From positions 1-39,703 of IMG/VR virus record IMGVR_UViG_3300032895_000010: a stretch of 39,703 nt of DNA; one strand, 5' to 3'. Shown piece after piece: positions 3,669 to 34,760 of this stretch (within the stretch, counting starts at the first letter, position 1; every line of letters starts with the position of its first letter). The translations under genes and the position numbers were made by a program. This stretch comes from a virus. Below the pieces are notes generated by a model. The model did no database searches. It was not told the DNA's origin and saw only the letters and a list, made by a program, of their open reading frames with translations.

Positions 3669-6440
3669 ATGCCTCTCGAATGGAAACCAACTCCTAGACA
3701 AGAACAATTCATTTCATTGCCCGACGCCGTAAAAGAAGCCCTTTACGGTGGTGCGGCTGGAGGAGGCAAAGATTTAGACCTAAATTCTATAATTTTTACA
3801 CAAAATGGAGTTAAACGTTTTGAGGATGTTCACCCTGGAGATTATGTATTTGATCCAGAAGGTTGGCCAACTAGGGTAGTTGCAGAATCTGAAATATTTA
3901 CAGATCATGTTTGTTATGAATTAAGTTTTTCAAATGGAACTAAGATAATTGCAGGAGAGGGTCATTTATGGAGAGTTCTTGATTTAAAAGATAGAGAGAA
4001 CGCTTATAAAAGAACTGAAGAATATAGAGCACGAAAACGTGAATTACGTGCGGCAAACAAAAAATACGGAACGAAACGGATTGATTTAGTATTAAGAAAT
4101 CAATCTAGACACCACGATTTAAAGCCTCAATTTACCGATAAGTTAGTTACCACAAAAACTCTTTTTGACAATCAAATTGTAAGACGTAGAGTAAATTTCT
4201 CTATTGATTGTCCAAAAGAAGTTAATACTTTAACCAGTAAATTACCGTTAGATCCATATATTTTAGGATGCTGGTTAGGTGATGGTAATTCTTATGCTGG
4301 AGTAATAACTAATATTGATTCACAAGTTGTAGATTATTTTATTGCAGAATTTGGTATACCAGCTAAATATAATAACGAGGCTTGGGGGATTTATGGACTT
4401 CAAACTAAGTTAAGGGAAATTGGAGTATTCAAAAATAAACACATTCCGCAGATTTATTTAACTGCTAGTTACGATCAAAGACTGGATTTGCTTCGTGGTT
4501 TAATGGATACTGATGGAACTTGTAATTCAGATGGGCAAGTTGAAATAAGTCAATGTAGAGAGGATTTAGCGGAACAGATTGCATTACTAATAAGAACATT
4601 AGGTGATAACGTTAGAGTAAATGAGGATACATCTTTTTTATATGGCATACAAAAGCAAAATCGTTATAGAATTAAATGGATTCCCTCATTTATTTGTTTT
4701 AATTTAGACAGAAAGAGAAACAATCAAGTAAAATTTAAGGAACGTGTTACAACTGAAAGAATATATATAAATGAAGTAAAGAAAGTAAGTACAGTTCCTA
4801 CTAAATGTATTCAGGTAGATTCTTCTGATGGAATGTTTTTGATTGGTGAAGGATTAATACCAACACATAATTCAGAAGTTCTTTTATACCTGCCATTAGT
4901 TCGTCAATTCTACCAACATCCGAAATTTAAGGGAATCATTCTTCGTAGAACATTACCTGAATTAGAACGTGAATTAATTCAGCGAAGTAAGGTAGATGGA
5001 TTCTATAAAGCATGTGGAGGAATTTACAAAGAACAGAAAAAAGTTTGGGAATTTCCTTCAGGCGCGCGAGTCGAATTTGGGCACGTCGAACATGAAAAAG
5101 ACGTTGAGATTTATGACACCGCGCAGTACAATTATATAGGATGGGACGAAGCGACTTCCTTTACAGAATATCAATATGAATACTTGTCTTTCTCTCGTTG
5201 TAGATCATCGTCGATCGACTTACCAAGTATTGTTAGGGCAGGAACAAATCCTGGAGGGGTTAGTCACGGTTACTTTCGTAGAAGATTTGTTGGTAAAACT
5301 AGAGACGAAGCTATCTTCCGTGCAAATAAAATTGTTAAAGAAATAGTTAAAAGAGGAGATAAAGAATTTGAAAGTTACTTAGCATTCATACCATCCAAAC
5401 TTCAAGACAATCCTCACCTCTTAAAATCAGATCCTAATTACATTAATGACATTCAAAGATTACCTGAAGTAGTAAGAATTGCTAAAGCTGACGGCGATTG
5501 GTGGATTTATGCTGGTCAAATGTTTGATGATTTTAGAGATCATCATATCGAATCAGAACCAGATAATGCAATTCATGTAATTAAACCTTTTGAAATTCCT
5601 TACTATTGGCCAAGAGTTTTATCAATAGATTGGGGCGGCGGAACGAAGACTAGCGCGATGACACACGCGCTATGGACCGCTATAAATCCGAATCCCTCAG
5701 AATTTTATCCAGCGAAATTCTATTCCTATAGAGAATTTACAGCAGTAGGGGAGAAAGTTTCTAATTGGGCATCTCATATATCTAAACTTTCAGGAGGGGA
5801 AAATTTAGTTGACGTAGCGTTAGATCCTTCGGCGTTTGGAGATAGAGGAACTGAACATACAATCGCAGAAGAATTTGCAAAACATTTCGGTCGTGAGGCG
5901 CGCCGCGCAGATAACGATAGATTAGCTGGTGCGGTAATTATATCAGAATACCTGCGATGGAAACCACTTCCAGCGAAATACGTTCCACCTGAAGGATACA
6001 ATCAAGACGTTGCAACCAGAATTAGAAGGATTCAAGGAGAGCAAGCATTAAAAGATTACGAGAGTTTATTTATTTTAGATGACGTGCAAGAATTCCTTCC
6101 TAAATATCAAATCTTTGAAGACACTTGTCCCAAATTAATCGAAGCAATTCAAAATTGTTCAAAAGATCCTGAAAAGCCTGGAGACATCATTCCATTTAAA
6201 GGTGATGATCCCTACGATAATTTACGTTATAATTTAAGTGCATGTTTAAATTATTTAAATTCTGGTCAGCAGTTTGCTGCAAATGAAGCGGAAAGAGCTA
6301 GAGTATTAGATTACTTTCATCGAACAGGTAATTATAATGCTTTAGAAACCGGAATGAATAGATTAGAGAAACGTGAGAGAGTATTAAACTCTCCCGTGCC
6401 AATGCGACGTTACATGAGGTTAAGAAGAAGATATGCCTGA
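3669..6440 (+). CDS. terL: Terminase large subunit with in-frame intein
   Basis: The precursor of 923 residues contains the packaging ATPase-nuclease split by an intein at residues 35-401. After splicing, the 556-residue enzyme would read YGGAAGGGK-S, a classical terminase P-loop. Other ATPase parts are Walker B YIGWDEAT (489-496, D493/E494) and motif III TNPGG (526-530). The RNase H-like nuclease shows SIDWG (D654), a later ALDPSAFGD acidic site (D719/D725), and KGDDPYDNLRY near 844-854. The enzyme would cut and pump phage DNA into the prohead through the portal (7351-9795). Without splicing the P-loop is destroyed, so packaging should depend on intein removal. Its stop overlaps the next ATG by eight bases. 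Confidence 0.95.
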   Translation: MPLEWKPTPRQEQFISLPDAVKEALYGGAAGGGKDLDLNSIIFTQNGVKRFEDVHPGDYVFDPEGWPTRVVAESEIFTDHVCYELSFSNGTKIIAGEGHLWRVLDLKDRENAYKRTEEYRARKRELRAANKKYGTKRIDLVLRNQSRHHDLKPQFTDKLVTTKTLFDNQIVRRRVNFSIDCPKEVNTLTSKLPLDPYILGCWLGDGNSYAGVITNIDSQVVDYFIAEFGIPAKYNNEAWGIYGLQTKLREIGVFKNKHIPQIYLTASYDQRLDLLRGLMDTDGTCNSDGQVEISQCREDLAEQIALLIRTLGDNVRVNEDTSFLYGIQKQNRYRIKWIPSFICFNLDRKRNNQVKFKERVTTERIYINEVKKVSTVPTKCIQVDSSDGMFLIGEGLIPTHNSEVLLYLPLVRQFYQHPKFKGIILRRTLPELERELIQRSKVDGFYKACGGIYKEQKKVWEFPSGARVEFGHVEHEKDVEIYDTAQYNYIGWDEATSFTEYQYEYLSFSRCRSSSIDLPSIVRAGTNPGGVSHGYFRRRFVGKTRDEAIFRANKIVKEIVKRGDKEFESYLAFIPSKLQDNPHLLKSDPNYINDIQRLPEVVRIAKADGDWWIYAGQMFDDFRDHHIESEPDNAIHVIKPFEIPYYWPRVLSIDWGGGTKTSAMTHALWTAINPNPSEFYPAKFYSYREFTAVGEKVSNWASHISKLSGGENLVDVALDPSAFGDRGTEHTIAEEFAKHFGREARRADNDRLAGAVIISEYLRWKPLPAKYVPPEGYNQDVATRIRRIQGEQALKDYESLFILDDVQEFLPKYQIFEDTCPKLIEAIQNCSKDPEKPGDIIPFKGDDPYDNLRYNLSACLNYLNSGQQFAANEAERARVLDYFHRTGNYNALETGMNRLEKRERVLNSPVPMRRYMRLRRRYA
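3771..4871 (+). mobile_element. Intein with LAGLIDADG endonuclease, class 3 features
   Basis: The 367-residue insert lies between Lys34 and Ser402 of the terminase P-loop. It begins DLDLNSIIFTQNG, so residue 1 is Asp rather than the usual Cys or Ser. It ends LIPTHN followed by Ser. The splicing blocks include GTKIIAGEGHLWRV (H99, W101), KCIQVDSSDG (C380) and THN (T399, H400, N401). Trp two residues after the block B His, Cys at block F position 4 and Thr before the terminal His-Asn together match the WCT signature known for class 3 inteins, which use the block F Cys as first nucleophile. Between them sits a two-motif homing endonuclease: YILGCWLGDGNS (197-208) and LLRGLMDTDGT (274-284), both with catalytic-type acidic residues, so it may be active. 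Confidence 0.92.
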
Positions 6441-7128: not shown

Positions 7129-7361
7129 TGTTTATTTTACCTTGTACACAAGATCAATTCAATAAATTATTAGTTGAATTGGAAAATTGTGGAGTTTCTG
7201 TAAATAGTTACTCTAATGGCTATCATATTGATGGTCATGGAGTTGAAGCAATTGCAACTTTTTCAAATAATGAACTTAGAGTAGTAGTTAGCAAGAAACC
7301 ATTTTTTGTTTCTGTTGCACATATTAAAGAAGCATTATACGAATCGTTAAATGCTAAATAA
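7128..7361 (+). CDS. Hypothetical protein (77 aa)
   Basis: I choose the ATG at 7128 because it overlaps the previous stop as TGATG; a GTG one codon upstream would add one residue. The protein (MFILPCTQDQFNKLLVELEN...) alternates predicted strands and helices in a small alpha/beta fold, and has two Cys. No family is recognised. It overlaps the portal gene start by 11 bases and is part of the coupled packaging block. Confidence 0.6.
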   Translation: MFILPCTQDQFNKLLVELENCGVSVNSYSNGYHIDGHGVEAIATFSNNELRVVVSKKPFFVSVAHIKEALYESLNAK

Positions 7362-9795
7362 TAAAAAGAAAAAGAAAGAATTAGATGACGAACTTAAGAA
7401 TTCTCTTAAGGATATAATTAAAATTTGTGAAAACGAAGATGAATTCGTGAGAAAAGCTCAAATTAGAACTTGGAAGAAGAACGAAGAATTTTGGCATGGT
7501 GTACAGTATTTATTTTGGAATGAGAAAGATCAAACTTGGATTAGTCCTCAATCAGGTGCGGCGCCGAATTTAGGTTTCTCGATGGAAGAAACTCAAGAAT
7601 TAGGGCCGTTCTACGATTTTGTAATTAACATATTTTTAGGTCATGGACAATCAATTATCTCAGCGTTAAGTGCACAAGTTCCTGCCATTAAATTTCTACC
7701 GGATGATGGCAATGATGATAAGGACATTGATACCGCAAAAACTTTTGATAAAATTGCTGAACTTGTCGCACGACACAACGACGCTAAACTTAAGTTCATT
7801 AAAACTTTATTCTTTCTTTATATTAATCCACTCGTTGCTGCTTATCGGTATATTGATACTGATAAGAAGTATGGTGTATATAAAGTCCCTGTTTTTCAAA
7901 ACCAAGAAGTAGAACAGAAAGTTTGTCCGATTTGCGGGGCAGAGATTGTAGGAGGTGATGATGAAAGTTTAAATAATGCACCGGTCAACCTAAAGAGCGA
8001 TGAGAGTCAAGATGTAGAAGAATCTAATGCCCCGCAACATACTTCTGACGAAGGGATTGAAGGTACAGAGGAAACAGGAGAGAATCAAGATACTGAGGAG
8101 ATTAATCAAGAACAAGAGCAAGAGTTAGTTTGTCCAAATTGCGGCTCGCTAGTCGAACCACAATTAGTTAAGAAAACTATTCCAATTCATGCATACGACG
8201 AAGATAAACCAAAATCCAGAGTTAAGTACGAGATTTTTGGCTCATTATTCGTTAAAATCCCAGTCTATGCATTCGATCAGGACTCTTGTGGTTATTTGGG
8301 ACTTTATTTAGATAAACCAAAAGATGAGTTAGTCGCTAATTTTTGTTATGATGAAAAAGGAAAATTAGATCGTGAATTAGCCAAAAAGATTGAATCGGAG
8401 TATATGATTAATCAGGATCGTTTCGCGCGCAACGAGTATCAATATCCAACTGGTCCAGAAATGGAAAACCGCGAAATGAGTACATTGATTCAATACTGGC
8501 TACGACCAAGTAAATTTAATTTAGAAAAGGATTTCGATAAACGAGAAAAACTTTTAGAAACTTTCCCGAAAGGTTGTAAAGTAGTTTTAATTGGAAAGAA
8601 CAAAGTATTCGTTTCTGCTGATGAAGAAGAATTAGATAAACGGTGGACATTAGGTAAAGCAGGATTATCAACTTATGTTCACGGAGATCCAATTTGTCAA
8701 CCTCTTGTTCCAATACAAGAGATGAGAAATAATTTAGATAATTTAATCATGGATACCATAGAACATGGTATTCCATCAACTTTCGTAGATTCTGAAGTTT
8801 TAGACTTTGATGCATATGGTCGTTTTGAAGCATTGCCTGGTTATATGTTTAAAGCTAAAGCACGACCGGGGAAGACTTTAGGGGAATCATTTTTCGTAGA
8901 ACCAAAAGCTCAAGTTCCTAGAGAAGTTGGAACATACAGACAAGCGTTAGATAAAGACGCACAATTCACTGTGGGATCATTTCCTAGTTTATACGGTGGA
9001 CCTAGCGAAGGAAAATCACGAACTCTAGGAGAGTATCAACAAAGTCGTCAACAAGCATTACAAAGATTAATGTTAATTTGGGTATACGTCGCAGATTTCT
9101 ATCGACGTAATATGGAAGAAATGTGTAGAATGTTCGCTGAAATGATGATTGAAGACGAATATTTTACAAAACTCTCAAGCAATGGAAATTATATAACTGT
9201 TTGGATTAAGAAATCTCAATTAGCTGGAAAAATTGGTGGAGTTGAAAGTGAAGCAAGCGATCAATTTCCAATGAGTATCCAACAAATTCAGATATTCTTG
9301 GAGAAATTTATTGAACTAAATAATCCTCAAATCAACGCAGCGTTGTATGCTCCAGAGAATCGAAAAGTTCTTCAAGACTATTTCATGCTTAATAAATTAA
9401 AGATGCCTGGAAGGAATCAAATTTATAAGCAGGTAGTCGAAATAAACAAGATGTTAAATGGAGTAGAAAATCCTTTAACTGGACAGAAAACTTACGGTCC
9501 TATCGCTGTTCCGAATCCGCAAAATCCAGGACAAACTATAAATCAGTCTTCAGTTCCAATTGATCCATTAGTAGATGATGATGCAATTCATATTTCTGAA
9601 TTGAAAGATTTCATGACTGATGACATTGGATTAGATTTGAAAGATCAGCAACCTTTAATTTATGCCGATCTTGAAGCCCATTTAAAAGCTCATCAACTTA
9701 ACTTACAATTAAAAACTATGACACAATTTGAATCTTCGCCTCCTGGCGAAGCACCGGATACTACAGAAACTTCTGACGCGGGAGGCGACGAATGA
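7351..9795 (+). CDS. Portal protein (podovirus type) with zinc-knuckle insertion
   Basis: The length of 814 residues suits the large portal (head-to-tail connector) proteins of podoviruses. The order of the parts fits too: a basic helical N-terminus (NKKKKKELDDEL), a wing/clip region, a conserved middle (EMRNNLDNLIMDTIEHGIP, TLGEYQQSRQQALQRLMLIW) and an acidic C-terminal tail. It follows the terminase and precedes the scaffold and capsid genes. Twelve such subunits would form the DNA channel and docking site for the terminase. Unusual are two CxxC knuckles, CPIC (192-195) and CPNC (261-264), separated by about 65 residues that are almost all Asp, Glu, Gln, Asn and Ser. These could form a zinc ribbon with a disordered acidic loop. 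The portal call itself is by overall pattern and context. Confidence 0.8.
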   Translation: MLNNKKKKKELDDELKNSLKDIIKICENEDEFVRKAQIRTWKKNEEFWHGVQYLFWNEKDQTWISPQSGAAPNLGFSMEETQELGPFYDFVINIFLGHGQSIISALSAQVPAIKFLPDDGNDDKDIDTAKTFDKIAELVARHNDAKLKFIKTLFFLYINPLVAAYRYIDTDKKYGVYKVPVFQNQEVEQKVCPICGAEIVGGDDESLNNAPVNLKSDESQDVEESNAPQHTSDEGIEGTEETGENQDTEEINQEQEQELVCPNCGSLVEPQLVKKTIPIHAYDEDKPKSRVKYEIFGSLFVKIPVYAFDQDSCGYLGLYLDKPKDELVANFCYDEKGKLDRELAKKIESEYMINQDRFARNEYQYPTGPEMENREMSTLIQYWLRPSKFNLEKDFDKREKLLETFPKGCKVVLIGKNKVFVSADEEELDKRWTLGKAGLSTYVHGDPICQPLVPIQEMRNNLDNLIMDTIEHGIPSTFVDSEVLDFDAYGRFEALPGYMFKAKARPGKTLGESFFVEPKAQVPREVGTYRQALDKDAQFTVGSFPSLYGGPSEGKSRTLGEYQQSRQQALQRLMLIWVYVADFYRRNMEEMCRMFAEMMIEDEYFTKLSSNGNYITVWIKKSQLAGKIGGVESEASDQFPMSIQQIQIFLEKFIELNNPQINAALYAPENRKVLQDYFMLNKLKMPGRNQIYKQVVEINKMLNGVENPLTGQKTYGPIAVPNPQNPGQTINQSSVPIDPLVDDDAIHISELKDFMTDDIGLDLKDQQPLIYADLEAHLKAHQLNLQLKTMTQFESSPPGEAPDTTETSDAGGDE

Positions 9796-10061: not shown

Positions 10062-10406
10062 ATGATGCAAGGATGCCAAATTACATTATCTGATACAGCC
10101 GCATATAATCTGTATGCATTGATTTTGTCTACTTTAAATTTAGCCTCTCCTCCACAAACAGGATTAGGGCAACGAGTCTTTGCATCTAATGTTGCCTATT
10201 TATGTTTAACTTTGGCAATTAATCAATCAGGAAATTCTGGTAACTTTGTATCTGTTCAGGATCAAAACGGTCAAGAAATGAATGTTTTGATTTCTGGTAT
10301 TCCTTGGATTGTATTTGATACAACGAATACTATTGATTTACAAGGAATTAAATTGCAGGCTACTGCTGATGGTGCGGTCGTTGACGTAGCGATAAACGTG
10401 AAATAA
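10062..10406 (+). CDS. Small virion-type protein (114 aa)
   Basis: The protein (MMQGCQITLSDTAAYNLYAL...) shows an N-terminal helix and then predicted beta strands (NFVSVQDQNGQEMNVLISG, IDLQGIKLQATADGAVVDVA). It has no signal peptide. A small beta-rich protein between the portal and the appendage-like genes could be a minor virion component. Two ATGs are possible, at 10062 and 10065. The next gene starts one base after its stop. Confidence 0.6.
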   Translation: MMQGCQITLSDTAAYNLYALILSTLNLASPPQTGLGQRVFASNVAYLCLTLAINQSGNSGNFVSVQDQNGQEMNVLISGIPWIVFDTTNTIDLQGIKLQATADGAVVDVAINVK

Positions 10407-10407
10407 T

Positions 10408-12006
10408 ATGAAACGACTTTTATTTTTATTATTTGCAATAACAAGCGTAGCTCAAAGTCAAATTGCTATTCACGTAATTTTTGGTTCTACGTTACCATCA
10501 TTTTGCAGTCCATTAACAGGAGATGTTTTCTTCTTAACAACTGGAGGAGCTGGAGTACAAGGATTATATTCGTGCGATGCAACTAATACTTGGGTATTTC
10601 ATGGAAATGGAGGAACTGGAGTAGATTCTGTTTCTGGTTCTGGACCAATTACAGCAACTGGAACAGGCGCTGTAACTGTAGGAATGTCATCTAGTGCAAC
10701 TTTACCAGGAACTCCTAGCGTTCAAACTGCACCAACTAATTCAGATAATTCAAATGATATAGCTTCAACTAATTTCGTTAGACATTTATTAGCTAGTTTA
10801 AATCCTGCAGCTTCAGTTGCAGCTGGCACGACAACAGTTTTACCTAATACTCCAACTTATAATAATAGTGCAGGAACTTTGACTGCCGCAAGTAATGGTG
10901 CGTTAACTATTGATGGATATTCCACTAATTTAAATGATAGATTATTAATTAAAAATCAAGCTAGTGCTTTTCAAAATGGAGTATATTCTGTAACAACTTT
11001 AGGATCTGGTTCGGTATCGTATGTCCTCACGCGCACGTCAGATTTTAATACTGTCGCAAGTATAAATAATGCTGGTGTAATACCTGTATTAAATGGAACT
11101 GTTAATAATAATACTACTTGGGTTTTAGATACTGCAATTACAACTTTAGGTACGTCTAGTATAATTTACGATCAAACTAATAGTCAACCTCCTGTAACTA
11201 CAGTTAATGGAGTAACTTTTAGTACTGCATCAGGATCTTATGAGGCTTGTATAAATACGTCAGCTACAGCGTGTACTTGGGAAAAAATACCGAATGTTGC
11301 ATTAGCAAATTCTGCAACTACAGTAAATGGGCAAACTTGTACTTTAGGATCTACTTGTACAATTTCTACATCATCAAATCCTAATGGTTATGGAATGTGG
11401 CAACTTTCTGTACCTAGTTACTCATCATTTAATTGGTATAATCAAAGTTCTGCTAGTGATGTTACAGGAACAAATTTTTTATCAATCCTAGGCACTGGAT
11501 GCAGTGGTTCTACATGCCTGAACATACTTCATCAAGCTTGCCCATCTGGATTTACTTCTGGAACTGAGGATTTGTTTGCGCTGGTTTTAGTGAGCGGGTC
11601 GAATGGGTACGGGCAAGTCCCGTTGGCGGGGATTGAAGTTGATGACGGAACGAAAATAGTAGGTCTTTTGGACATTCCGAATAACACCTCATTTACTCCG
11701 AATGACACTGGCATTTTCCTGAACACCTACACAAGTGCAACTGGTACGGCCGCAAACGTCTCTCTGGATAATAATTACACGCAAATTCAGTGGCCGATCT
11801 GGTTAAGGCTCCACGATGCCTCTGGGACAATTTCAGGGCTTTACTCGTTTTCTGGTGTGGATTGGAGAACGTTAGGCTCAACAACGACAGGGGGATTATC
11901 TTCGGTCGCTAACTGTGGCTTTTTTGCGTCTGGGTCGATTACGGGACAGCAGGATTCCGTGACTATTTTATCATGGCAATTTGCATCGAGTTTAACTCCT
12001 CAATAA
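10408..12006 (+). CDS. Secreted tail-fibre-like protein with C-terminal lectin-like domain
   Basis: This 532-residue protein begins with a clear Sec signal peptide (MKRLLFLLFAITSVA, likely cut before Gln16). It then shows modules typical of phage tail fibres: APTNSDNSNDIASTNFV (108-124) and NGALTIDGYSTNLNDRLLIK (163-182) with QNGVYSVTTLGSGS after it. The last 200 residues (QWPIWLRLHDASGTISGLYS, then GVDWRTLGS and a final TILSWQF strand) resemble concanavalin/LamG-like carbohydrate-binding domains. So a receptor- or glycan-binding protein appears to carry an export signal, which virion fibres normally lack. The DNA from about 11490 to the end is visibly more GC-rich than the rest, pointing to a separately acquired C-terminal segment. 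Confidence 0.75.
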   Translation: MKRLLFLLFAITSVAQSQIAIHVIFGSTLPSFCSPLTGDVFFLTTGGAGVQGLYSCDATNTWVFHGNGGTGVDSVSGSGPITATGTGAVTVGMSSSATLPGTPSVQTAPTNSDNSNDIASTNFVRHLLASLNPAASVAAGTTTVLPNTPTYNNSAGTLTAASNGALTIDGYSTNLNDRLLIKNQASAFQNGVYSVTTLGSGSVSYVLTRTSDFNTVASINNAGVIPVLNGTVNNNTTWVLDTAITTLGTSSIIYDQTNSQPPVTTVNGVTFSTASGSYEACINTSATACTWEKIPNVALANSATTVNGQTCTLGSTCTISTSSNPNGYGMWQLSVPSYSSFNWYNQSSASDVTGTNFLSILGTGCSGSTCLNILHQACPSGFTSGTEDLFALVLVSGSNGYGQVPLAGIEVDDGTKIVGLLDIPNNTSFTPNDTGIFLNTYTSATGTAANVSLDNNYTQIQWPIWLRLHDASGTISGLYSFSGVDWRTLGSTTTGGLSSVANCGFFASGSITGQQDSVTILSWQFASSLTPQ

Positions 12007-12013
12007 TGATTTT

Positions 12014-12718
12014 ATGATGAAAAAATTATTATTTTTATTGTTAATTTACAGTTGCAAATTAAATGCACAAAATATTATATCTTGTGCGGGATCTAATTGG
12101 TCTGGACCATATAGACAATTATGTGCAATAGATGGAACATCTCCATTACAAATTGATGTTTGTCCAGTTAATCCAGCTTGCTCAAATCAATCGCAATGGC
12201 AAAATATTAATTCTTCAGGATCAGCCGCAGCGTTTAATTCTCTAACTAGTGGAACTAATAATTCTGCTGCGATGGTAGTGGGAGGATCTGCTAGTTTAAA
12301 TTATGCAAATACAGGAATTATTAATGCTAATGAATGTAACGGCGCGGCTTGCGGGACGTTATTAGGATCGGGACTAACTAGTTACGCTTTATTGGTAGGA
12401 AACGGAACTGTAAACGTTAAAGTAGCAAACGCTGCATTACTATCGGATAGTTTTGGAGATTTAACTATTCCAGGGAATTTAACTGTTTTGGGAAATATAA
12501 TTGGTTCAGGAAGTATCAGTTTAATACAATTTACGAATTTATATTCTGTAGCAGGAACTGCTTTACCAACTTGCAATCTTTCAAACGTAGCAACTATAGC
12601 TTGGGTTAGCGATGGTAATTCGGCAACTTTAGGAACTGTATATACAGGATCAGGAAGTATAAAAATTGAAGTAGAATGCATCTATACTGGTTCTACTTAC
12701 GAATGGTTAATTCACTAA
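12014..12718 (+). CDS. Secreted tail-fibre-like protein (234 aa)
   Basis: The N-terminus MMKKLLFLLLIYSCKLNA is a Sec signal peptide with probable cleavage before Gln19. IYSC is only a poor lipobox, so a lipoprotein is less likely. The mature part has several Cys (CAGSNW, CAIDG, CPVNPAC) and a fibre-type module, FNSLTSGTNNSAAMVVGGSA, followed by low-complexity beta-rich sequence (LLVGNGTVNVKVANAALLSD; LTIPGNLTVLGNIIGSG). The pattern suits a trimeric or repetitive surface protein. Paired Cys and the signal suggest folding in the periplasm or outside the cell. The stop overlaps the next ATG (TAATG). It is second in the run of signal-peptide genes. Confidence 0.65.
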   Translation: MMKKLLFLLLIYSCKLNAQNIISCAGSNWSGPYRQLCAIDGTSPLQIDVCPVNPACSNQSQWQNINSSGSAAAFNSLTSGTNNSAAMVVGGSASLNYANTGIINANECNGAACGTLLGSGLTSYALLVGNGTVNVKVANAALLSDSFGDLTIPGNLTVLGNIIGSGSISLIQFTNLYSVAGTALPTCNLSNVATIAWVSDGNSATLGTVYTGSGSIKIEVECIYTGSTYEWLIH

Positions 12719-13065
12719 TGTTTAGAACAGACGAAAACAATAATCCAACGGCTTTTACAACTGACCTAGCTAAACAGGCTGGTTTAGTTCTTGGAACTGA
12801 TTATGTCGATGGAACATCTTTTCCAAAGGGAATTTTAGTAACTGCAAAAATAGTTGGAGATCCTATTGCAACTACTATAAAATTAATTGACGCAGTAGGA
12901 TACTATACTAAATCTGGACATACAAGATGGGTATATATAGCTATTCCTAACTTTATTTGGAATAGTTTAACTGATGATGAAAAACGTGATGTGATAGGAT
13001 TTCATTATCGACGTGAAGGTGGGACTGAGATGAGAAGTTTGTTTCCTAATTATGGTAAATCATGA
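12718..13065 (+). CDS. Hypothetical cytoplasmic protein inside the secretion cassette (115 aa)
   Basis: I use the ATG at 12718 because it overlaps the previous stop as TAATG; an earlier in-frame ATG at 12676 would overlap by 43 bases. The protein (MFRTDENNNPTAFTTDLAKQ...) lacks a signal peptide, unlike its neighbours. It contains KIVGDPIATTIKLIDAVGYY and a C-terminal GFHYRREGGTEMRSLFPNYG. I believe a similar RTDxxNNPxAFTTD...EGGTEMR protein occurs in other phages, but its function is unknown to me. Its stop overlaps the following gene as ATGA. Confidence 0.65.
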   Translation: MFRTDENNNPTAFTTDLAKQAGLVLGTDYVDGTSFPKGILVTAKIVGDPIATTIKLIDAVGYYTKSGHTRWVYIAIPNFIWNSLTDDEKRDVIGFHYRREGGTEMRSLFPNYGKS

Positions 13066-14390
13066 TTAAATCTTTTATATTAGGAATTTCAATAATTAGT
13101 GTAGCAGTAGCTCAGCCAGGAACTTGTTATATTTTAGGAACAAATTCAGGTTGTAGCACAGGACCACAATCTCCTAGCTTACAAAGTTATGTAGGAACAG
13201 TAACTACCCAATTAAGTAATTTAGTTTTTGGAAATTCAGTTAAACCACAAATTGTAGTAGAAATGACTGCCGCAACTCCAAGTTATAGAACTACTGATTC
13301 TCCTGGTTGTCAAAACAATGGAACTTGCGTATTTTCTACGGCAAATTCTAACAGCGTTAGTATTGGATTAATTAATTATTTTAATTATGCATTGAAAAAT
13401 TCTGGAGCTAATGTAGTAGTTTATAATTTCGATCCTTATTTTGGATTAGCCGCGTCAGAATACGCGGGAACTTGTAAAGCTACAGATCCTAATTTTAATT
13501 CTTGGCAATTATCTCAAGATGTTTTAATGTTACAGGCGATTCAAAGTGCGGGATTCCAAATTTGGCTAAGTGCTACAGGATTGCCTAGTTCTATGACGGC
13601 TTGCGGTTATACGCTTGGAAGTATAACGGCCGCACAGTATAATTCTGCAATAGATCCAATGATTACTGCTTATATTAAACATTTAAATAATAATTCTATA
13701 AATGTAACGGCAGTAGTTGGAGTACATGAAGTAAATGGAATACAACAAATCACTACGGAGAATGCAGTTGCATTCTCCCCTTCAGATTTTACTTTAACAA
13801 TGAACGGAGCCTGCGCAGCAACTACAGCTGCGAATAATACAATTAGATGCGGTGCAGGATTTACTGCAAGTGATGGAACTTGGGCAACATACGCTTTTGC
13901 ACATTATAATTCATCAGTAAATACATTCTTCGCAGAAACTTATGGACCTTATAATGCGTATACACAAACTATAGAAAATGTAGAATCAATGTGCGCGTCA
14001 GCGTTAGCTGCGGGATTGCAACGCTGTGATAATTCAGAAGGAAATCCTCCAGTTTGGGGAACTGGAAATAGCGAATCAGACGCATTTGCTGGTTGTACTT
14101 GGAGTAGTTGGACTACGTATAATCAAATTTATTCATGGTTATTTACTGTATCACATCATTTAGCAGCTAATAACTTTAGTTCTTTTGTTTATTTTGGAAC
14201 TTATCCAATGGCTTATCAAACTTCAAGTATGACTCCTAATTGTTATGCGTCAGACAACACTGACGCTCCATATTTAACCATGACAAATAGTACAGGTAGT
14301 ACATCAGTATTGCAATTATTTCAGCAAGCAACAAGTTGGTCAGCAATAAATGTGCAAGGAGTAACGATTCAAGGAATTAAGGTTAATTAA
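13062..14390 (+). CDS. Secreted protein, possibly glycoside-hydrolase-like barrel (442 aa)
   Basis: A Sec signal peptide (MIKSFILGISIISVAVA, cut before Gln18) leads a Cys-containing extracellular-type protein. The body alternates strands and helices in a way that suits a TIM barrel: KPQIVVEMT, ANVVVYNFDPYFG, GFQIWLSATGLP, VTAVVGVHEVNG, FSSFVYFGTYPM. VVGVHEVNG at the end of a strand could be the acid/base region of clan-A-type glycosidases, and CDNSEGNPPVW could hold a second acidic residue. This is a structural guess, not a family match. An exported polysaccharide-degrading enzyme would fit the lectin- and fibre-like neighbours. Confidence 0.55.
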   Translation: MIKSFILGISIISVAVAQPGTCYILGTNSGCSTGPQSPSLQSYVGTVTTQLSNLVFGNSVKPQIVVEMTAATPSYRTTDSPGCQNNGTCVFSTANSNSVSIGLINYFNYALKNSGANVVVYNFDPYFGLAASEYAGTCKATDPNFNSWQLSQDVLMLQAIQSAGFQIWLSATGLPSSMTACGYTLGSITAAQYNSAIDPMITAYIKHLNNNSINVTAVVGVHEVNGIQQITTENAVAFSPSDFTLTMNGACAATTAANNTIRCGAGFTASDGTWATYAFAHYNSSVNTFFAETYGPYNAYTQTIENVESMCASALAAGLQRCDNSEGNPPVWGTGNSESDAFAGCTWSSWTTYNQIYSWLFTVSHHLAANNFSSFVYFGTYPMAYQTSSMTPNCYASDNTDAPYLTMTNSTGSTSVLQLFQQATSWSAINVQGVTIQGIKVN

Positions 14391-14750
14391 ATGAAGAAAT
14401 TGATTTTCTTAGCAATCTTGTTTACGTCTGCGAGTTTTGCACAGCATTCGACTACTTTGACATGGTCTTGGAGTCAAGGAACTGGAGATCCAGCGACAGG
14501 ATTTCATGTTTGGAGAATCCCTATTTCTGGAACTACCTGTCCAGCATTTGGAACATCTCCTTATGCTACTGTAAGTTCTCCATCAACTTTAACTTATACA
14601 GATACAGCAGTAACAGCAGGAGTTACAGAATGTTATGGCGTTACAGCTTATAATTCAGGAGGTGATTCGTCGATGTCTAACGTAGTTAGCGCGACAACTC
14701 CGTTTCTGCCGCCAACTATTCCCAGTGCTTTGTCGGCAGTTCCCAAATAA
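14391..14750 (+). CDS. Secreted fibronectin type III domain protein (119 aa)
   Basis: The protein consists of a signal peptide (MKKLIFLAILFTSASFA, cut before Gln18) and one fibronectin III domain of about 85 residues: LTWSWSQGTGDPATGFHVWR, a middle TYTDTAVTAGVTECYGVTAY, and GGDSSMSNVVSATTP. The YTDT...Y.V.A.N..G..S..SN pattern is diagnostic. A Pro-rich tail follows. Single FN3 modules usually bind polysaccharide or protein and are common in exported bacterial and phage surface proteins. It starts directly after the previous stop and is the fourth signal-peptide gene in the cassette. Confidence 0.8.
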   Translation: MKKLIFLAILFTSASFAQHSTTLTWSWSQGTGDPATGFHVWRIPISGTTCPAFGTSPYATVSSPSTLTYTDTAVTAGVTECYGVTAYNSGGDSSMSNVVSATTPFLPPTIPSALSAVPK

Positions 14751-14773
14751 ATGTATAGAATGTGAGAAATGAT

Positions 14774-14947
14774 ATGAGAAACTATCAAAGATGGTTATTA
14801 ACGTTAGGATTAACAGTATCTATTGCAGTATTGACTTGTTTGGCAGATAGTACATTTACTTGGCAATCAATAGTTAAAGCTGCTGCTATTGCAGCATTAC
14901 CTATGATTATAGCTTTAAAAACCAAGTTAAATGATAATGAACAATGA
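14774..14947 (+). CDS. Two-helix membrane protein, holin-like candidate (57 aa)
   Basis: MRNYQRWLLTLGLTVSIAVL opens a protein with two hydrophobic helices (about 7-24 and 34-50) linked by a short polar turn, and a charged C-terminus (KTKLNDNEQ). This matches the shape of small holins or other inner-membrane proteins. I prefer the ATG at 14774 over a GTG at 14762 because a GAGA-type ribosome site precedes it. The stop overlaps the next ATG (ATGA). No endolysin lies next to it, so the holin reading is weak. Confidence 0.5.
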   Translation: MRNYQRWLLTLGLTVSIAVLTCLADSTFTWQSIVKAAAIAALPMIIALKTKLNDNEQ

Positions 14948-16200: not shown

Positions 16201-17391
16201 ATGCCAGATGAAGTAATTCTAGATAATGAACTTGAAACTGATAATGACATTCTTAATAAAGAAGTCGAAGATGAAAAAGTAACTGAAGAACCTGAAAAAG
16301 AAGTCGAAACTGAAGAAACTGAAGAAGAAGATAAAGAAAAGAAACCGGCCAGCGAAGACGAAGACAAGCCTTTTCCTTATGAACGTCCTTCAATACAGGA
16401 AATTAAAGCAAAGTATCCTGATTTCTTCAAAGATTTTCCAATTTTTAGAGACGTAGTATTTCGTGAATTAGAATTTACGAAAGTATTTCCTACGATTGAC
16501 GATGCAAAAGAATCTTTGGAAGACTCGATTACATTATCTGGATTACGTGATAGTGTATTGGCTGGTAAGTCAGAAGACGTATTCGATGCTGTAAAGAATA
16601 CTGACGAAAAAGCTGCTGAAACTTTTGCATTAACTTTTCTGCCAACTTTATACAAAAAGGATAATGAACTATACAAACAAGCACTGACTCCGGTAATGGA
16701 AGCTGCTGCGAGAAATATGTTTAGTTCTAGCGATGAAAACGTTAGAAATGCAGCAATAGTTTTCATCAAACATTTATGGCCCGGATTATCGAATGATAAC
16801 GTAATGGCTATAGTTGAAGGAAGGGGAACATTAGCTAAAAATTTAACTGAATCAGAAGATGCTAAGAAATTAAAAGAGGAGCGTCAAAGAAACGCTGAAA
16901 ATGAATTAACAAAATTTCACGCTTCAACAATACAAGAATTGGGAAAACAACGTGCGGCGCTGATTTCGCGCGGCTTAGATCCCGAAAAAGTTTTAACGGA
17001 AGCACAAAAGCAATATCTTGTAAAAGAGATTGCTAATGAGGTAGACAAGCAGTTAATAGCTGACGAAATTCATATGAAAAATATGAATGCTCGTTGGTTA
17101 CGTGCAACAAAAGAGGGTTTTAACGACACTTCAAAAGAGAAGATTATTTCCGCGTATCTCTCACGCGCGAAGCAAGTTATCCCTTCAATACGAGAAAAGG
17201 TCAAAAACGACCTATTAGGAGCGCGAGCAAATCACTCGCGCAAAACTATCGAGAATATAGACTCAAAATCTAATTCTCGAAAAGAAGTCGTAAGTGGTAA
17301 AGTTTCTGGAAGTCAAGGTTCTGAAACAGAACTAAAACCGAGTAAGAAACTTTATCGTGAGATGTCAGACATCGACATTCTAAACTCGTAA
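16201..17391 (+). CDS. Capsid scaffolding protein
   Basis: The first 60 residues are almost only Glu, Asp, Lys and Thr. A helical middle and a long coiled-coil stretch follow (about 205-290, KKLKEERQRNAENELTKFHA), and then a basic C-terminus (SRAKQVIPSIREKVKNDLLG) with a Ser/Lys-rich tail. An acidic, helical, non-membrane protein of about 400 residues directly before the major capsid gene is the standard profile of a podovirus scaffold. It guides prohead assembly and then leaves. AAGGAA lies just before the ATG. The call is by composition and position. Confidence 0.8.
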   Translation: MPDEVILDNELETDNDILNKEVEDEKVTEEPEKEVETEETEEEDKEKKPASEDEDKPFPYERPSIQEIKAKYPDFFKDFPIFRDVVFRELEFTKVFPTIDDAKESLEDSITLSGLRDSVLAGKSEDVFDAVKNTDEKAAETFALTFLPTLYKKDNELYKQALTPVMEAAARNMFSSSDENVRNAAIVFIKHLWPGLSNDNVMAIVEGRGTLAKNLTESEDAKKLKEERQRNAENELTKFHASTIQELGKQRAALISRGLDPEKVLTEAQKQYLVKEIANEVDKQLIADEIHMKNMNARWLRATKEGFNDTSKEKIISAYLSRAKQVIPSIREKVKNDLLGARANHSRKTIENIDSKSNSRKEVVSGKVSGSQGSETELKPSKKLYREMSDIDILNS

Positions 17392-17406: not shown

Positions 17407-18717
17407 ATGGCGGCAGGCAGTGAGAGTCAAGTTATTGCGGCCGAAATAGAGAGAGTGGAATCAAAAGTTCCTATTCTCTTTGATCGTGATGATACATTCT
17501 ATTCACAGGTTGAAAAAGTTCCTGTGGAAGTTGTAACGTCGCGCGCTATGCGCGTACCGCTCGAAATTTATCCTGGTGGAAAAACCCGTCACGTTTCATT
17601 AGATGGTTATGATCTTGGACGTGGCGATATGCCAACTTATCAATACGGTAATTTATCTCCAGTTACCATTGCACATGCTCTGGAGTGGACTACCGCTAGA
17701 AAAGTTGGAACGGATTCAAGCAAAAAATCTGTAATCAATGCATTTCGCAGAGATTTAGCGTCTGCAATGAAAGAATGGCGTAGAAACGTTGATTCTCTTT
17801 GCATGACTTCTGGAAATGCTGTTCTTGGGACAATCGGTGCAATTTCAACGTCTGATAGAATTGATACTTACACGTTAGGTTTCACTGGAGCTACGAGATT
17901 AGATGGTTTTGGCGCGCGGCTGTTGCGATTCGATATGGATATTGCAGTTTACAATTCTACGTTAACTGCGTATCGTACACCGGCAGTCACACCACCGTCT
18001 ACAATGTCTAGTTTGGAAGGAACTATTCAGTATTATTCTGCTCAACAGGATCAGATTCAAGTTCCTAGTTTTACAGGAGCTTCGGTCGGTGATTTAGTTG
18101 TAGCATCTGGATTGGCTCCACAAACTCCTCCCCAAAGTATTTTCGGCGTTCCTTACCACGACAATAATTCTACAGTTGGAATGTGGTTAACTTTTAATCG
18201 TGCCACAACTCCACCTGTAGTTGCATCGGGAGTTAACGCTAACGGTGGAAGTTTAACACTTCCGTATCCCAGATTAGCCATGAATTTAATTATGGATCGT
18301 GTTGGAATTAATACGAGCCAGAAATTAACTGCATGGATGCACATGGCACAGAAACAAGCCTATGAAGAACTTGGTTTCCAAATTAGCATTATTAATAAGG
18401 AAGCTAAGGAACAAGGCTTGGATCTGTATTTCAACGATAACATGCAGATGGCTGGTGCGCCCGTCAAAATATCTGCATCGTGGGATAAAACTCGAATTGA
18501 TTTCATCGACTTGGAAAACTGGGGCCGCGCAGAATATATGCCTCCCGGCTGGTACAAAGATGAAAACGGTTTGAAATATTTCGTAGTTCGTGGCGGAACT
18601 GGTGGCGTTGCAACAAGTAATTTGGCGTATTTAATTACGTCATTTAACCTGTGGATGCGAAATCCTGCAATGGCCGCCTATATCTACGGGCTATTGGTTC
18701 CGGCGGGTTATTATTGA
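17407..18717 (+). CDS. Major capsid protein
   Basis: The 436 residues begin with a helical N-arm (GSESQVIAAEIERVESKVPI) and contain mixed alpha/beta sequence. They include IYPGGKTRHVSLDGYDLGRG near 54-73 and AHALEWTTARKVGTDSSKKS near 90-109, and end AAYIYGLLVPAGYY. There are no cysteine pairs, signal peptide or membrane helix. The position directly after the scaffold, a strong purine-rich ribosome site (GAGAGG) and the double hairpin after its stop all fit the most highly expressed late gene. It should form the HK97-fold shell. The fold itself is not proven from the sequence alone. Confidence 0.88.
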   Translation: MAAGSESQVIAAEIERVESKVPILFDRDDTFYSQVEKVPVEVVTSRAMRVPLEIYPGGKTRHVSLDGYDLGRGDMPTYQYGNLSPVTIAHALEWTTARKVGTDSSKKSVINAFRRDLASAMKEWRRNVDSLCMTSGNAVLGTIGAISTSDRIDTYTLGFTGATRLDGFGARLLRFDMDIAVYNSTLTAYRTPAVTPPSTMSSLEGTIQYYSAQQDQIQVPSFTGASVGDLVVASGLAPQTPPQSIFGVPYHDNNSTVGMWLTFNRATTPPVVASGVNANGGSLTLPYPRLAMNLIMDRVGINTSQKLTAWMHMAQKQAYEELGFQISIINKEAKEQGLDLYFNDNMQMAGAPVKISASWDKTRIDFIDLENWGRAEYMPPGWYKDENGLKYFVVRGGTGGVATSNLAYLITSFNLWMRNPAMAAYIYGLLVPAGYY

Positions 18718-19446: not shown

Positions 19447-20068
19447 TGACGTAGTAACTTTAGTTTCTATCGTCCCATTTTTGATTTCTGAATTTAAACC
19501 AGGAATCTATCCAGGAAGATTTGTAATTCCTCCCTGCATTAATACAGCAGTTCCATGCATTTTGGAAGTTGGGCCAAGTGTTCATTTTATACAACAATTT
19601 AGTGGCGGTGAAGAAGAAATGACACCAATTGTTGTAAAAGATATCGCAAAGGATATTGCGGCTGCGATATTAAGTGATTATTTCAACGCACAAATGGACG
19701 TTGACGGAGATTGTCGTCCAGGATTAACTGCCGTTAATGGAAGAGTTAGACCAGAAGAATTTGTTGTAAAATACAAAGCAAAACATCTCAAATTAATTTC
19801 AGATCAAAATGCTTGGTTTGGTAAATTAGTTCGTAGGGCTGACAACGATTGGAATCGTTACAAGAATCATTTGGTAGTTTCAGACAATCAACGATTTGCA
19901 GCGCGGGCGTTAGGACTGGAAAAAGAATGGTTAACTCCGTTAGCTACTGAGATTCCCATAAAATGTCCGTCTTGTATGCAAAACTGTGATCCGAGAGCTG
20001 TAGTTTGTTCATTCTGTCGTTGTATTTTGAAACCTGAAGAGTATAAGAAACTGAATTTTGCGGCATAA
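19382..20068 (+). CDS. Protein with C-terminal zinc-ribbon (228 aa)
   Basis: I accept the ATG at 19382, with GGGG eleven bases upstream, despite a 65-base overlap with the previous gene. The N-terminal part is beta-rich (VVTLVSIVPFLISEFKPGIY). The middle is helical and includes MTPIVVKDIAKDIAAAILSD. The C-terminus holds four zinc-type Cys: CPSC (195-198) and CSFC (209-212), with two extra Cys at 202 and 214. The ribbon could bind nucleic acid or stabilise a virion connector protein. No family is recognised. Confidence 0.65.
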   Translation: MPRLPERMMNFSKVLPVNLENDDVVTLVSIVPFLISEFKPGIYPGRFVIPPCINTAVPCILEVGPSVHFIQQFSGGEEEMTPIVVKDIAKDIAAAILSDYFNAQMDVDGDCRPGLTAVNGRVRPEEFVVKYKAKHLKLISDQNAWFGKLVRRADNDWNRYKNHLVVSDNQRFAARALGLEKEWLTPLATEIPIKCPSCMQNCDPRAVVCSFCRCILKPEEYKKLNFAA

Positions 20069-20069
20069 T

Positions 20070-20783
20070 ATGGTCATAGAGGCTATAACAGTTTGCATAG
20101 ACTATGCTGATTTTTTAGCATGGTCTATGCCTCTAAATAAACAACATTTCGATAATTGGATCGTTGTTACTGAGCCAAGAGATAACCATACCAAAGAAGT
20201 GTGTAGATACTATAATGTTAATTTCTTGGAAACTTATTCAGCAGAATTGCATAAAGGAGAATTTCATAAGGGAGTTTGTGTAACTGAAGGAATAGAAAAA
20301 TTAAGTAAAGCTGATTGGCTATTATTAATTGACGCTGATACGATTCTTCAACCGAATTTCAGAAGAGTAATTGAGACATTAAATTTGAACAATGAATTAG
20401 ATAAATCGTGTTTGTACACGATTGATCGAGTAAGATTTGATTCAATAGAAGAGTGGTTAAAGTTTTACACTAGGCCAAGTTTTAATTTAGGCAATCGTCC
20501 ACGGGACGGTCGTTTCTGTCTGCCGAATTTTATTCCGACAGGCTTTTTCCAGATGTGGAATGTTGAAACTGGTATTATTCAATATATCCATCAATGGTGT
20601 ACTGTAGGTGGTGAAGATATTCGTTTTGCATATCTTTGGCCGAGAAATAAACGAATATTCATCCCTGAAACAACTTGCTATCACATAGCCAGCGACCGAC
20701 AAAATAATTGGCTAGGAAGAAAAAGCAAGCCTTTCGAAATAGATAGAAGAGAGGAATTAAAGTGTCTGCTACACTCACCGTAA
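20070..20783 (+). CDS. GT-A type glycosyltransferase-like protein (237 aa)
   Basis: I start at the ATG at 20070, just after the previous stop; an upstream TTG is weaker. Strand-helix alternation (MVIEAITVCIDYADFLAWSM; NWIVVTEPRDNHT) leads to ADWLLLIDADTILQPNF, with DAD (88-90) in the position of the metal- and nucleotide-sugar-binding DxD motif. A later GGEDIRFAYLW resembles the ED acceptor/base region of family-2-like enzymes. It would move a sugar from an activated donor to phage protein, DNA or a host glycan. It shares the operon with the methyltransferase at 22748, so a shared modification pathway is possible. The last 22 bases overlap the next gene. Confidence 0.7.
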   Translation: MVIEAITVCIDYADFLAWSMPLNKQHFDNWIVVTEPRDNHTKEVCRYYNVNFLETYSAELHKGEFHKGVCVTEGIEKLSKADWLLLIDADTILQPNFRRVIETLNLNNELDKSCLYTIDRVRFDSIEEWLKFYTRPSFNLGNRPRDGRFCLPNFIPTGFFQMWNVETGIIQYIHQWCTVGGEDIRFAYLWPRNKRIFIPETTCYHIASDRQNNWLGRKSKPFEIDRREELKCLLHSP

Positions 20784-22532: not shown

Positions 22533-22757
22533 ATGAACGTTTTGCATTGGATCACTATGAATGTAGTTAATTGGCTTTTCATCTGCTTCATTGTAGGTTT
22601 GATTGGCTTTGGTTATGGTCATAAACACGGAATACGTTGTATGATTGATATCATGAAAGGTCACATGGTATACGATCATTTTGACATATCTGAAGCAATT
22701 GAATATGAAGAAGATGTTTTGAAAGGCATCGTTCCACAGGGAAAGGAATGTCGATAG
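22533..22757 (+). CDS. Single-pass membrane protein (74 aa)
   Basis: Residues 8-29 (TMNVVNWLFICFIVGLIGFG) form a membrane helix. A His/Lys-rich turn (YGHKHG) and an acidic amphipathic C-terminal half (FDISEAIEYEEDVLKG) follow. The start is one base after the previous stop. The tail may face the cytoplasm by the positive-inside rule. The function is unknown. It overlaps the methyltransferase gene by ten bases. Confidence 0.6.
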   Translation: MNVLHWITMNVVNWLFICFIVGLIGFGYGHKHGIRCMIDIMKGHMVYDHFDISEAIEYEEDVLKGIVPQGKECR

Positions 22758-23236
22758 GTGAACACATAGATCCTTGGATGAGTGTTACGTTAGTAGAATT
22801 ACAATTTCTACACGACCAAGCAAAAAAGTATGAAAGTATTGTAGAAATTGGATGTTGTCTTGGACGCAGCACTTATGCATTATGTTCAGGTCGTACAGGA
22901 TTAGTTACAGCTATTGATGATTTTGAGATGTCACCAGGCTGTGAACCTGTATTCTTTAAAAATCTGGCAGAATTCAAGAATATTCGTTTCCTAAAAATGA
23001 AGTCATATAAAGCTGTCGAATTTGTAGACAGCGCTGATATGATCTTCATTGATGGAAATCACGAATACAATGAAGTAATGAAGGATCTTGAATTGTGGAC
23101 ACCAAAAATCAAGAAATTTATTTGTGGCCATGACTATCGTCCAGGAATGGGTTGGACTGATGTTGATAAGGCTGTAGATAAATTCTTCGACAAGAAACCT
23201 AGTCTTTATCAAAGCATTTGGTATTATGAATTATGA
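22748..23236 (+). CDS. SAM-dependent methyltransferase-like (class I)
   Basis: The 162 residues show a Rossmann-type methyltransferase core. Motif I is VEIGCCLGRST (32-42) and binds AdoMet. An acidic strand end in TAIDDFE (D57/D58) would contact the ribose. A later SADMIFIDGNHEYN (96-108) has the DGxHxY signature of the Methyltransf_24 type. The signature is shared with O-methyltransferases acting on sugars or small molecules rather than with DNA methylases, as no NPPY/DPPY motif is present. The glycosyltransferase-like gene lies 2 kb upstream, so methylation of an added sugar is a reasonable guess. The stop overlaps the next gene as ATGA. Confidence 0.8.
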   Translation: MSIGEHIDPWMSVTLVELQFLHDQAKKYESIVEIGCCLGRSTYALCSGRTGLVTAIDDFEMSPGCEPVFFKNLAEFKNIRFLKMKSYKAVEFVDSADMIFIDGNHEYNEVMKDLELWTPKIKKFICGHDYRPGMGWTDVDKAVDKFFDKKPSLYQSIWYYEL

Positions 23237-34572: not shown

Positions 34573-34760
34573 TCGTGTAATTTTGCTTTCTTATTTCTTT
34601 CTGAAGCAAATTGAAACGGCAAGCAAAACCCGCACGAATAGACTATCATATTCGTTTGAGTACCTTCATCTCTAGTTGGATAAACTGCTGGCTTGATTTC
34701 TCTTATTTGAAAAACTACTACTTTATAAATAGCATCTCTTTGACAATGATAACATTTCAT
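34569..34760 (-). CDS. Small zinc-knuckle protein (63 aa)
   Basis: Two CxxC pairs, CYHC (3-6) and CGFC (43-46), frame a beta-rich middle (YKVVVFQIREIKPAVYPTRD). They should bind one zinc in a ribbon fold. The C-terminus is basic (ERNKKAKLHE). Small zinc ribbons between replication genes often bind nucleic acid or a polymerase partner, but the target is unknown. It is coupled to the polymerase gene upstream by ATGA and to the next gene by a second ATGA. Confidence 0.7.
   Translation of the reverse strand: MKCYHCQRDAIYKVVVFQIREIKPAVYPTRDEGTQTNMIVYSCGFCLPFQFASERNKKAKLHE

Follow-up and report, generated by a model that had tools for sequence, protein, structure and literature searches.

The window, that is, the whole stretch of DNA analysed, is a 39.7 kb IMG/VR record of an uncultured tailed phage. 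The plus strand carries, in this order, a terminase gene (3669-6440), the portal gene (7351-9795), genes for two small membrane proteins, a small conserved gene at 10062 and a cassette of genes at 10408-14750. The cassette is followed by a gene for a small membrane protein (14762), an ATP-grasp gene (14944), the scaffold gene (16201), the major capsid protein gene (17407) and the tail genes. The features between the portal and the capsid genes are listed below.

7351..9795 (+), portal protein and left border of the cassette, assigned from gene order and size, with homologues in 82 loci
10062..10406 (+), conserved small protein of 114 aa without a signal peptide, adjoining the portal gene, with homologues
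10408..10458 (+), predicted signal peptide MKRLLFLLFAITSVAQS, followed by Q (rule-based caller; the +1 Gln is invariant in 8 homologous N-termini)
10459..12006 (+), mature fibre-like protein with an adaptor, a tail-fibre module (84-254) and a ConA-like lectin domain (about 325-532)
12014..12067 (+), predicted signal peptide MMKKLLFLLLIYSCKLNA, followed by Q (rule-based caller)
12068..12718 (+), mature small fibre-like protein with 8 Cys, resembling a protein of locus L009
12718..13065 (+), protein of 115 aa without a signal peptide, start shifted from the listed 12676
13062..13112 (+), predicted signal peptide MIKSFILGISIISVAVA, followed by Q (rule-based caller)
13113..14390 (+), mature protein with 12 Cys, possibly a (beta/alpha) barrel, whose homologue in locus L005 has a signal peptide
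14391..14441 (+), predicted signal peptide MKKLIFLAILFTSASFA, followed by Q (rule-based caller)
14442..14750 (+), mature FnIII-like domain (weak NCBIfam match), 71% identical to an L005 homologue with a signal peptide
14762..14947 (+), membrane protein of 61 aa with a hydrophobic segment
14944..16191 (+), ATP-grasp protein (PurD-like) and right border of the cassette (GARS_A, E=2.5e-16), with homologues in 12 loci
16201..17391 (+), probable scaffold protein with an acidic N-terminus, role assigned from position, with homologues in 83 loci
17407..18717 (+), major capsid protein, assigned from position and conservation (alignment A1, 80 IMG/VR loci)

No informative Pfam or PHROG match was obtained for the portal protein; its homologues hold a constant position with respect to the capsid gene (alignment A2), and those of the scaffold lie immediately 5' of the capsid gene in all 83 loci. 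Homologues of the 10062 protein occupy the matching place in L008, L009, L012, L017 and L018. The start of the listed 12676 reading frame was placed at 12718 because of homology to a protein of L017, where the corresponding gene lies downstream of the capsid gene. Neighbouring genes of the cassette are separated by a few bases or joined by ATGA or TAATG overlaps, and this end-to-end packing makes co-expression with the structural genes likely. Promoter-like sites inside the cassette are as numerous as in shuffled sequences. From the packing of the genes we infer that the cassette is expressed late. The initial annotation described these genes as a run of four signal-peptide genes inside the structural operon; the coordinates and the place are confirmed, while the interval also contains the 12718 gene, whose product has no signal peptide.

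Several other features of the window deserve mention. The PurD-like ATP-grasp gene stands directly 5' of the scaffold gene and is retained in 12 of the clade's loci. The gene of the terminase large subunit is interrupted by a LAGLIDADG-bearing intein, which splits the Walker A motif between GGAAGGGK and S; its first residue is Asp, not Cys or Ser, and its C-terminal end reads THN before the S, while the homologue in L005 (64% identity) has no such interruption. The tail operon contains a weak GT2-like glycosyltransferase gene (20058-20783) and a Methyltransf_24 methyltransferase gene (22748-23236), both absent from all other fetched loci, and these are possibly further host-surface genes. The minus strand at 34757-37225 encodes a uracil-DNA glycosylase domain joined to a DNA polymerase of family A.

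Signal peptides were predicted with two rule-based callers of our own, one without and one with a bonus for Gln at the cleavage site. The four reading frames, at 10408-12006 (532 aa), 12014-12718 (234 aa), 13062-14390 (442 aa) and 14391-14750 (119 aa), begin with leaders of the canonical n-h-c design ending in small-x-small^Gln, and are predicted to be of the Sec/SPase I type. When every reading frame of the window was scored, the four cassette genes and the 61-aa membrane protein at 14762 lay above the threshold; the remaining picks were two low-scoring cytoplasmic reading frames, whose scores are not plausible. Gln is found at position +1 in all four proteins with the Gln-bonus caller and in three of four without the bonus, the caller without it preferring TSA^SFAQ for the 14391 protein. 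The Sec signal peptides ascribed earlier to the four genes were recovered at the exact coordinates, together with Gln as the likely first mature residue. No canonical lipobox was seen in the sequences of the four window leaders. Lipoprotein-like leaders were observed in L033, L055, L060, L062 and L076, so export in the clade is apparently not confined to SPase I substrates.

The 10408 protein is composed of three parts. Its N-terminal adaptor, containing two Cys, is common to eight signal-peptide proteins from eight phages; the only invariant columns in the alignment of these eight N-termini are Met1, the +1 Gln, Pro, Cys, Gly and Cys, and the leaders are divergent. The module at residues 84-254 is also present in the tail fibres of Melnitz phages and cyanophages, and matches PDB 9efk orf22 (E=9e-17). 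The C-terminal domain, modelled with a mean pLDDT of 62 and a pTM of 0.70, resembles a ConA-type jelly roll, for which the top fold match is 5ly8 (Z 12.7, rmsd 3.6 over 180 residues), followed by GH43 C-terminal domains, ERGIC-53 and galectins. Both the tail-fibre modules and the lectin-like domain named in the initial annotation are therefore supported, the former by fibres of cultured phages and the PDB entry, the latter by a model of the quality given above.

The 12014 protein is fibre-like, and an L009 protein is 34% identical to it over 132 aa. The fibronectin III domain assigned to the 14391 product agrees with its weak NCBIfam match. A candidate relative of this protein in L095 was rejected, the match being weak and its context unhelpful. 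In L012 (17153-17483) an FnIII-like gene has its apparent signal-peptide start one base out of frame in a run of A, which is due either to an assembly error or to phase variation. The sole homologue found for the 13062 protein is that of L005 (34% identity), in which the stretch INEPNG aligns with VHEVNG of the window protein. Clan GH-A glycosidases have a TIM barrel with an NE acid/base and a second Glu; the glycosidase-like barrel proposed for the 13062 protein in the initial annotation is a candidate fold. A PDB sequence search with the 13062 protein gave no match. A tblastn search of INPHARED with the 12014, 13062 and 14391 proteins returned no match, and Pfam, PHROGs, NCBIfam and PADLOC gave almost nothing for the cassette. 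No muralytic domain was matched in the four proteins by Pfam or NCBIfam, although a missing match does not exclude one.

These domains bear on the possibility that the cassette encodes exported enzymes and lectins, which would loosen or degrade the extracellular matrix or capsule and aid spread after lysis, as auxiliary or public-good genes. The lectin fold is close to carbohydrate-binding modules, the 13062 protein is possibly barrel-like, with the INEPNG stretch in its L005 homologue, and a LamG domain occurs in the same slot in L013. Nevertheless, no enzyme family scored above the Pfam or NCBIfam cut-off in the four window proteins, the 13062 model, built from a two-sequence alignment, reaches a pLDDT of 29.5, and the window copy is devoid of the NEP motif. 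We consider this explanation unlikely.

A second characteristic of the signal-peptide proteins is their cysteine content. Cys accounts for 1.91% of residues in the mature parts versus 0.84% in the other proteins of the same phages, and the mature parts also differ from the products of downstream genes (Mann-Whitney p=3e-6). The number of Cys is even in 23 of the 25 signal-peptide proteins having any Cys (p=1e-5); with the window proteins removed the proportion is 19/21, and among the remaining proteins it is 286/651. A high Cys content with even counts is expected of disulfide-bonded exported proteins. Even counts are not proof of export, because virion proteins can form disulfides unexported, as in the tail hubs of crassvirus virions (PMC10172136).

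The same observations bear on whether the hydrophobic N-termini are export signals at all, or whether they are virion-assembly or membrane-tethering elements of ordinary fibres. Such a role would suit the fibre modules and the place in the structural operon. It agrees poorly with the canonical n-h-c leaders ending in small-x-small^Gln, with the enrichment and parity of Cys, and with the fibres of cultured phages, which contain the same module without such leaders and with 0-1 Cys. It is therefore regarded as improbable.

About 100 relatives of the capsid protein were found in IMG/VR, 80 of which were fetched; there was no match among cultured phages (INPHARED, tblastn). Both portal and capsid genes are present in 79 loci, and 59 were left after removal of near-identical ones. 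Some of these relatives have extra genes in the stretch from portal to scaffold, and in the others nothing lies there. Signal peptides are predicted for 27 of the 78 extra genes between portal and capsid in the 59 dereplicated relatives (scaffold and ATP-grasp set aside), versus 19 of 793 genes elsewhere (Fisher p=6e-19), so that the arrangement, which was to be sought in other phages, does recur. At least one signal-peptide gene at this place was found in 15 of the 59 phages, the window included, and since no more relatives than these have such genes, their role is accessory. The Gln-bonus caller puts Gln at +1 in 21 of the 27 genes, a figure somewhat inflated by the bonus; the caller without it cuts exactly at Q in 14/25. 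The pattern small-x-small^Q lies in the leader region of 22 of 25 signal-peptide proteins, against 77 of 956 proteins without a signal peptide. In other relatives the same slot holds collar-like or collagen-like sequences, as judged by reading them. L026 (2576-8681) and L070 (3309-8566) each have four signal-peptide genes behind the portal, some encoding proteins of about 1000 aa.

The content of the slot changes rapidly. Compared with L009, the window shows 90% identity in the capsid protein, 69% in the portal and up to 76% in the core tail genes, and most head and core tail genes are 53-90% identical, whereas the cassettes are almost unrelated. In L005, a member of the same clade by terminase and portal, genes for homologues of the 10408 (lectin part), 13062 and 14391 proteins follow one another in a single run, and all three have a signal peptide of their own. 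This run is situated between terminase and portal, not behind the portal, and therefore it moves and keeps its leaders. Judged from these comparisons, the cassette lies in a rapidly changing gene-exchange site around the portal gene. Fast turnover is also what would be seen if the leaders had simply arrived with recently acquired cargo genes, without a selected function in the phage. We hold this to be very improbable, given that the leaders are kept in homologues differing at most other positions, and given the even Cys counts.

Homologues without leaders were also detected. In L093 the FnIII-like homologue of the 14391 protein starts with MAQHS at the predicted cut of the window protein, and is preceded by an AGGAG-type ribosome site. 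L007 has a lectin head without a leader, fused behind an anchor-like module and encoded in a fibre position, beside a tail gene of 1498 aa. In L006, whose upstream tail gene is homologous to that of L007 (68%), the N-terminal module is a separate gene (72% identical to the L007 module) and the lectin head, with a predicted signal peptide, is the next one. In our reading the head is one and the same, serving on the virion in one case and as a free exported protein in the other.

The fibre-like organization raises the possibility that exported fibres fold and acquire disulfides in the periplasm, then attach to the virion once lysis has brought the contents of periplasm and cytoplasm together; the two-Cys domain that these proteins share after their signal peptides would in that case serve for docking. 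To our knowledge, there is no tailed phage with exported fibres that dock on virions, and most relatives lack such genes. The variable tail genes 24531 and 25271, kept in the window and L009, have no signal peptides, and L006 encodes the anchor-like module apart from the lectin with the signal peptide. On the other side stand the shared N-terminal domain with a variable rest, as in tail fibres, the fibre modules themselves and the place between portal and capsid, where crAss001 has head fibre and tail fibre genes (PMC10172136). This crassvirus-like gene order fits a virion part equally. On balance, docking after lysis appears rather unlikely.

What can be read from the sequence is the predicted signal peptides kept across relatives, the Cys signature, the fibre and lectin modules, and the turnover; from these we infer the actual export, the binding target and a masking role. 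The best supported part is that the proteins are exported late in infection and act outside the cytoplasm. Our preferred explanation, put forward tentatively and at somewhat less than even probability, is that the four genes encode Sec-exported, disulfide-bonded fibre heads masking the glycan receptors of the host. The proteins would be made from the late operon together with the structural proteins during virion production, exported by Sec and cut by SPase I at Gln, and would fold in the periplasm. As free versions of fibre heads that recognise receptors or glycans, they would then act outside the cytoplasm and bind the host's own surface glycans. Receptors would be masked in this way against superinfection, and new virions kept from sticking to the producer cell and debris; the 13062 barrel protein may also trim host surface glycans. 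Masking is favoured because the exported modules are receptor-type, rapidly exchanged, free versions of fibre heads; docking after lysis and matrix-modifying enzymes or lectins are its serious competitors. A broader statement, that the clade exports disulfide-bonded fibre heads late, either as receptor decoys or as fibres docking on virions after lysis, is likewise made with reserve, as plausible and short of probable.

The general view is that tailed phages produce and assemble their fibres in the cytoplasm. Either decoys or docking after lysis, if true, would add a new step to the biology of tailed phages. The repeated export signals on fibre-type modules in the late operon of a large uncultured clade suggest a role for free secreted receptor-binding parts. 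They also provide specific candidates, open to testing, for proteins that mask receptors or for components of the virion that mature outside the cytoplasm. In addition, they yield a simple sequence rule by which more may be found: a signal peptide, Gln and a two-Cys adaptor.

With regard to the host, Acidobacteriota often show Gln at +1 too. The Gln at +1 of the SPase I cut corresponds to the Q-rule of Bacteroidetes, and high Q-values are found outside this group as well (PMC5837995). When genome contigs were scanned with the capsid alignment, two short contigs from MAGs were hit, one of them from Bacteroidetes, and a search of 198 genomes in the phylum of one MAG contig gave weak matches only. 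Shine-Dalgarno-like motifs precede a 0.37 fraction of the window genes versus 0.13 of control positions. The Q-rule and the low GC suggest a Bacteroidota host, an assignment that is tentative in view of the Shine-Dalgarno use and of the occurrence of +1 Gln outside Bacteroidota.

The initial annotation knew of no described system with this layout, which is too strong. Q-rule exported proteins have been published for Porphyromonas gingivalis phages (proposed Nixviridae), and a fibre locus at a similar place for crassviruses. As in the window, the P. gingivalis phage proteins have SPase I signal peptides exposing Gln, and a modification of the host surface was proposed; they differ in being the products of five prophage genes of unknown function, and the accessible part of that report mentions neither fibre or lectin modules nor a portal-side cassette (PMC10367356). 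In crAss001 (NC_049977) the genes gp21-gp26, encoding a head fibre, tailspike, lectin and hydrolase, likewise put genes for fibres and a lectin into the gap that separates portal from capsid, and cryo-EM shows gp21 and gp22 as parts of the virion (PMC10172136). In contrast to the window genes, gp21-gp26 have no signal peptides. Homology of the window portal and capsid proteins to those of crAss001 was not detected, which does not exclude it. In the same caller test signal peptides were absent from T7, from the crAss001 structural genes and from the Melnitz and DC31 fibres, the sole caller-positive exception in crAss001 being an annotated lysis regulator. Phage fibres are assembled in the cytoplasm and have no export signal, and the window proteins, with their predicted signal peptides, depart from this. 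Target proteins of phage-encoded DGRs have likewise been noted without signal peptides (PMC6199706).

At the level of single modules, the central module of the 10408 protein is 36% identical over about 199 residues to tail fibres of Melnitz-type methylophages and cyanophages; the fibres inspected have no signal peptide and almost no Cys. The carbohydrate-binding module of the Lactobacillus phage J-1 Dit (5ly8) shares the ConA-like lectin fold and a receptor-binding role in a phage, but is virion-bound, not exported, and has 9% sequence identity to the 10408 lectin. Exported endolysins, such as fOg44 Lys44 and the SAR endolysins (PMC6116005), are also phage proteins using the host Sec pathway, whereas the window proteins carry fibre and lectin modules and no recognised muralytic domain. 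Superinfection-exclusion lipoproteins of the Llp/Cor type differ in their lipobox and lipid anchor, no canonical lipobox being present in the four leaders. Q-rule export, exported endolysins and the crassvirus fibre locus, as a source of virion parts, are the known elements. In the literature searched, no paper dealt with fibre-like phage proteins that are secreted, or with 9efk, and none described the combination seen here, in which fibre modules with export signals occupy a portal-side turnover site across an uncultured clade.
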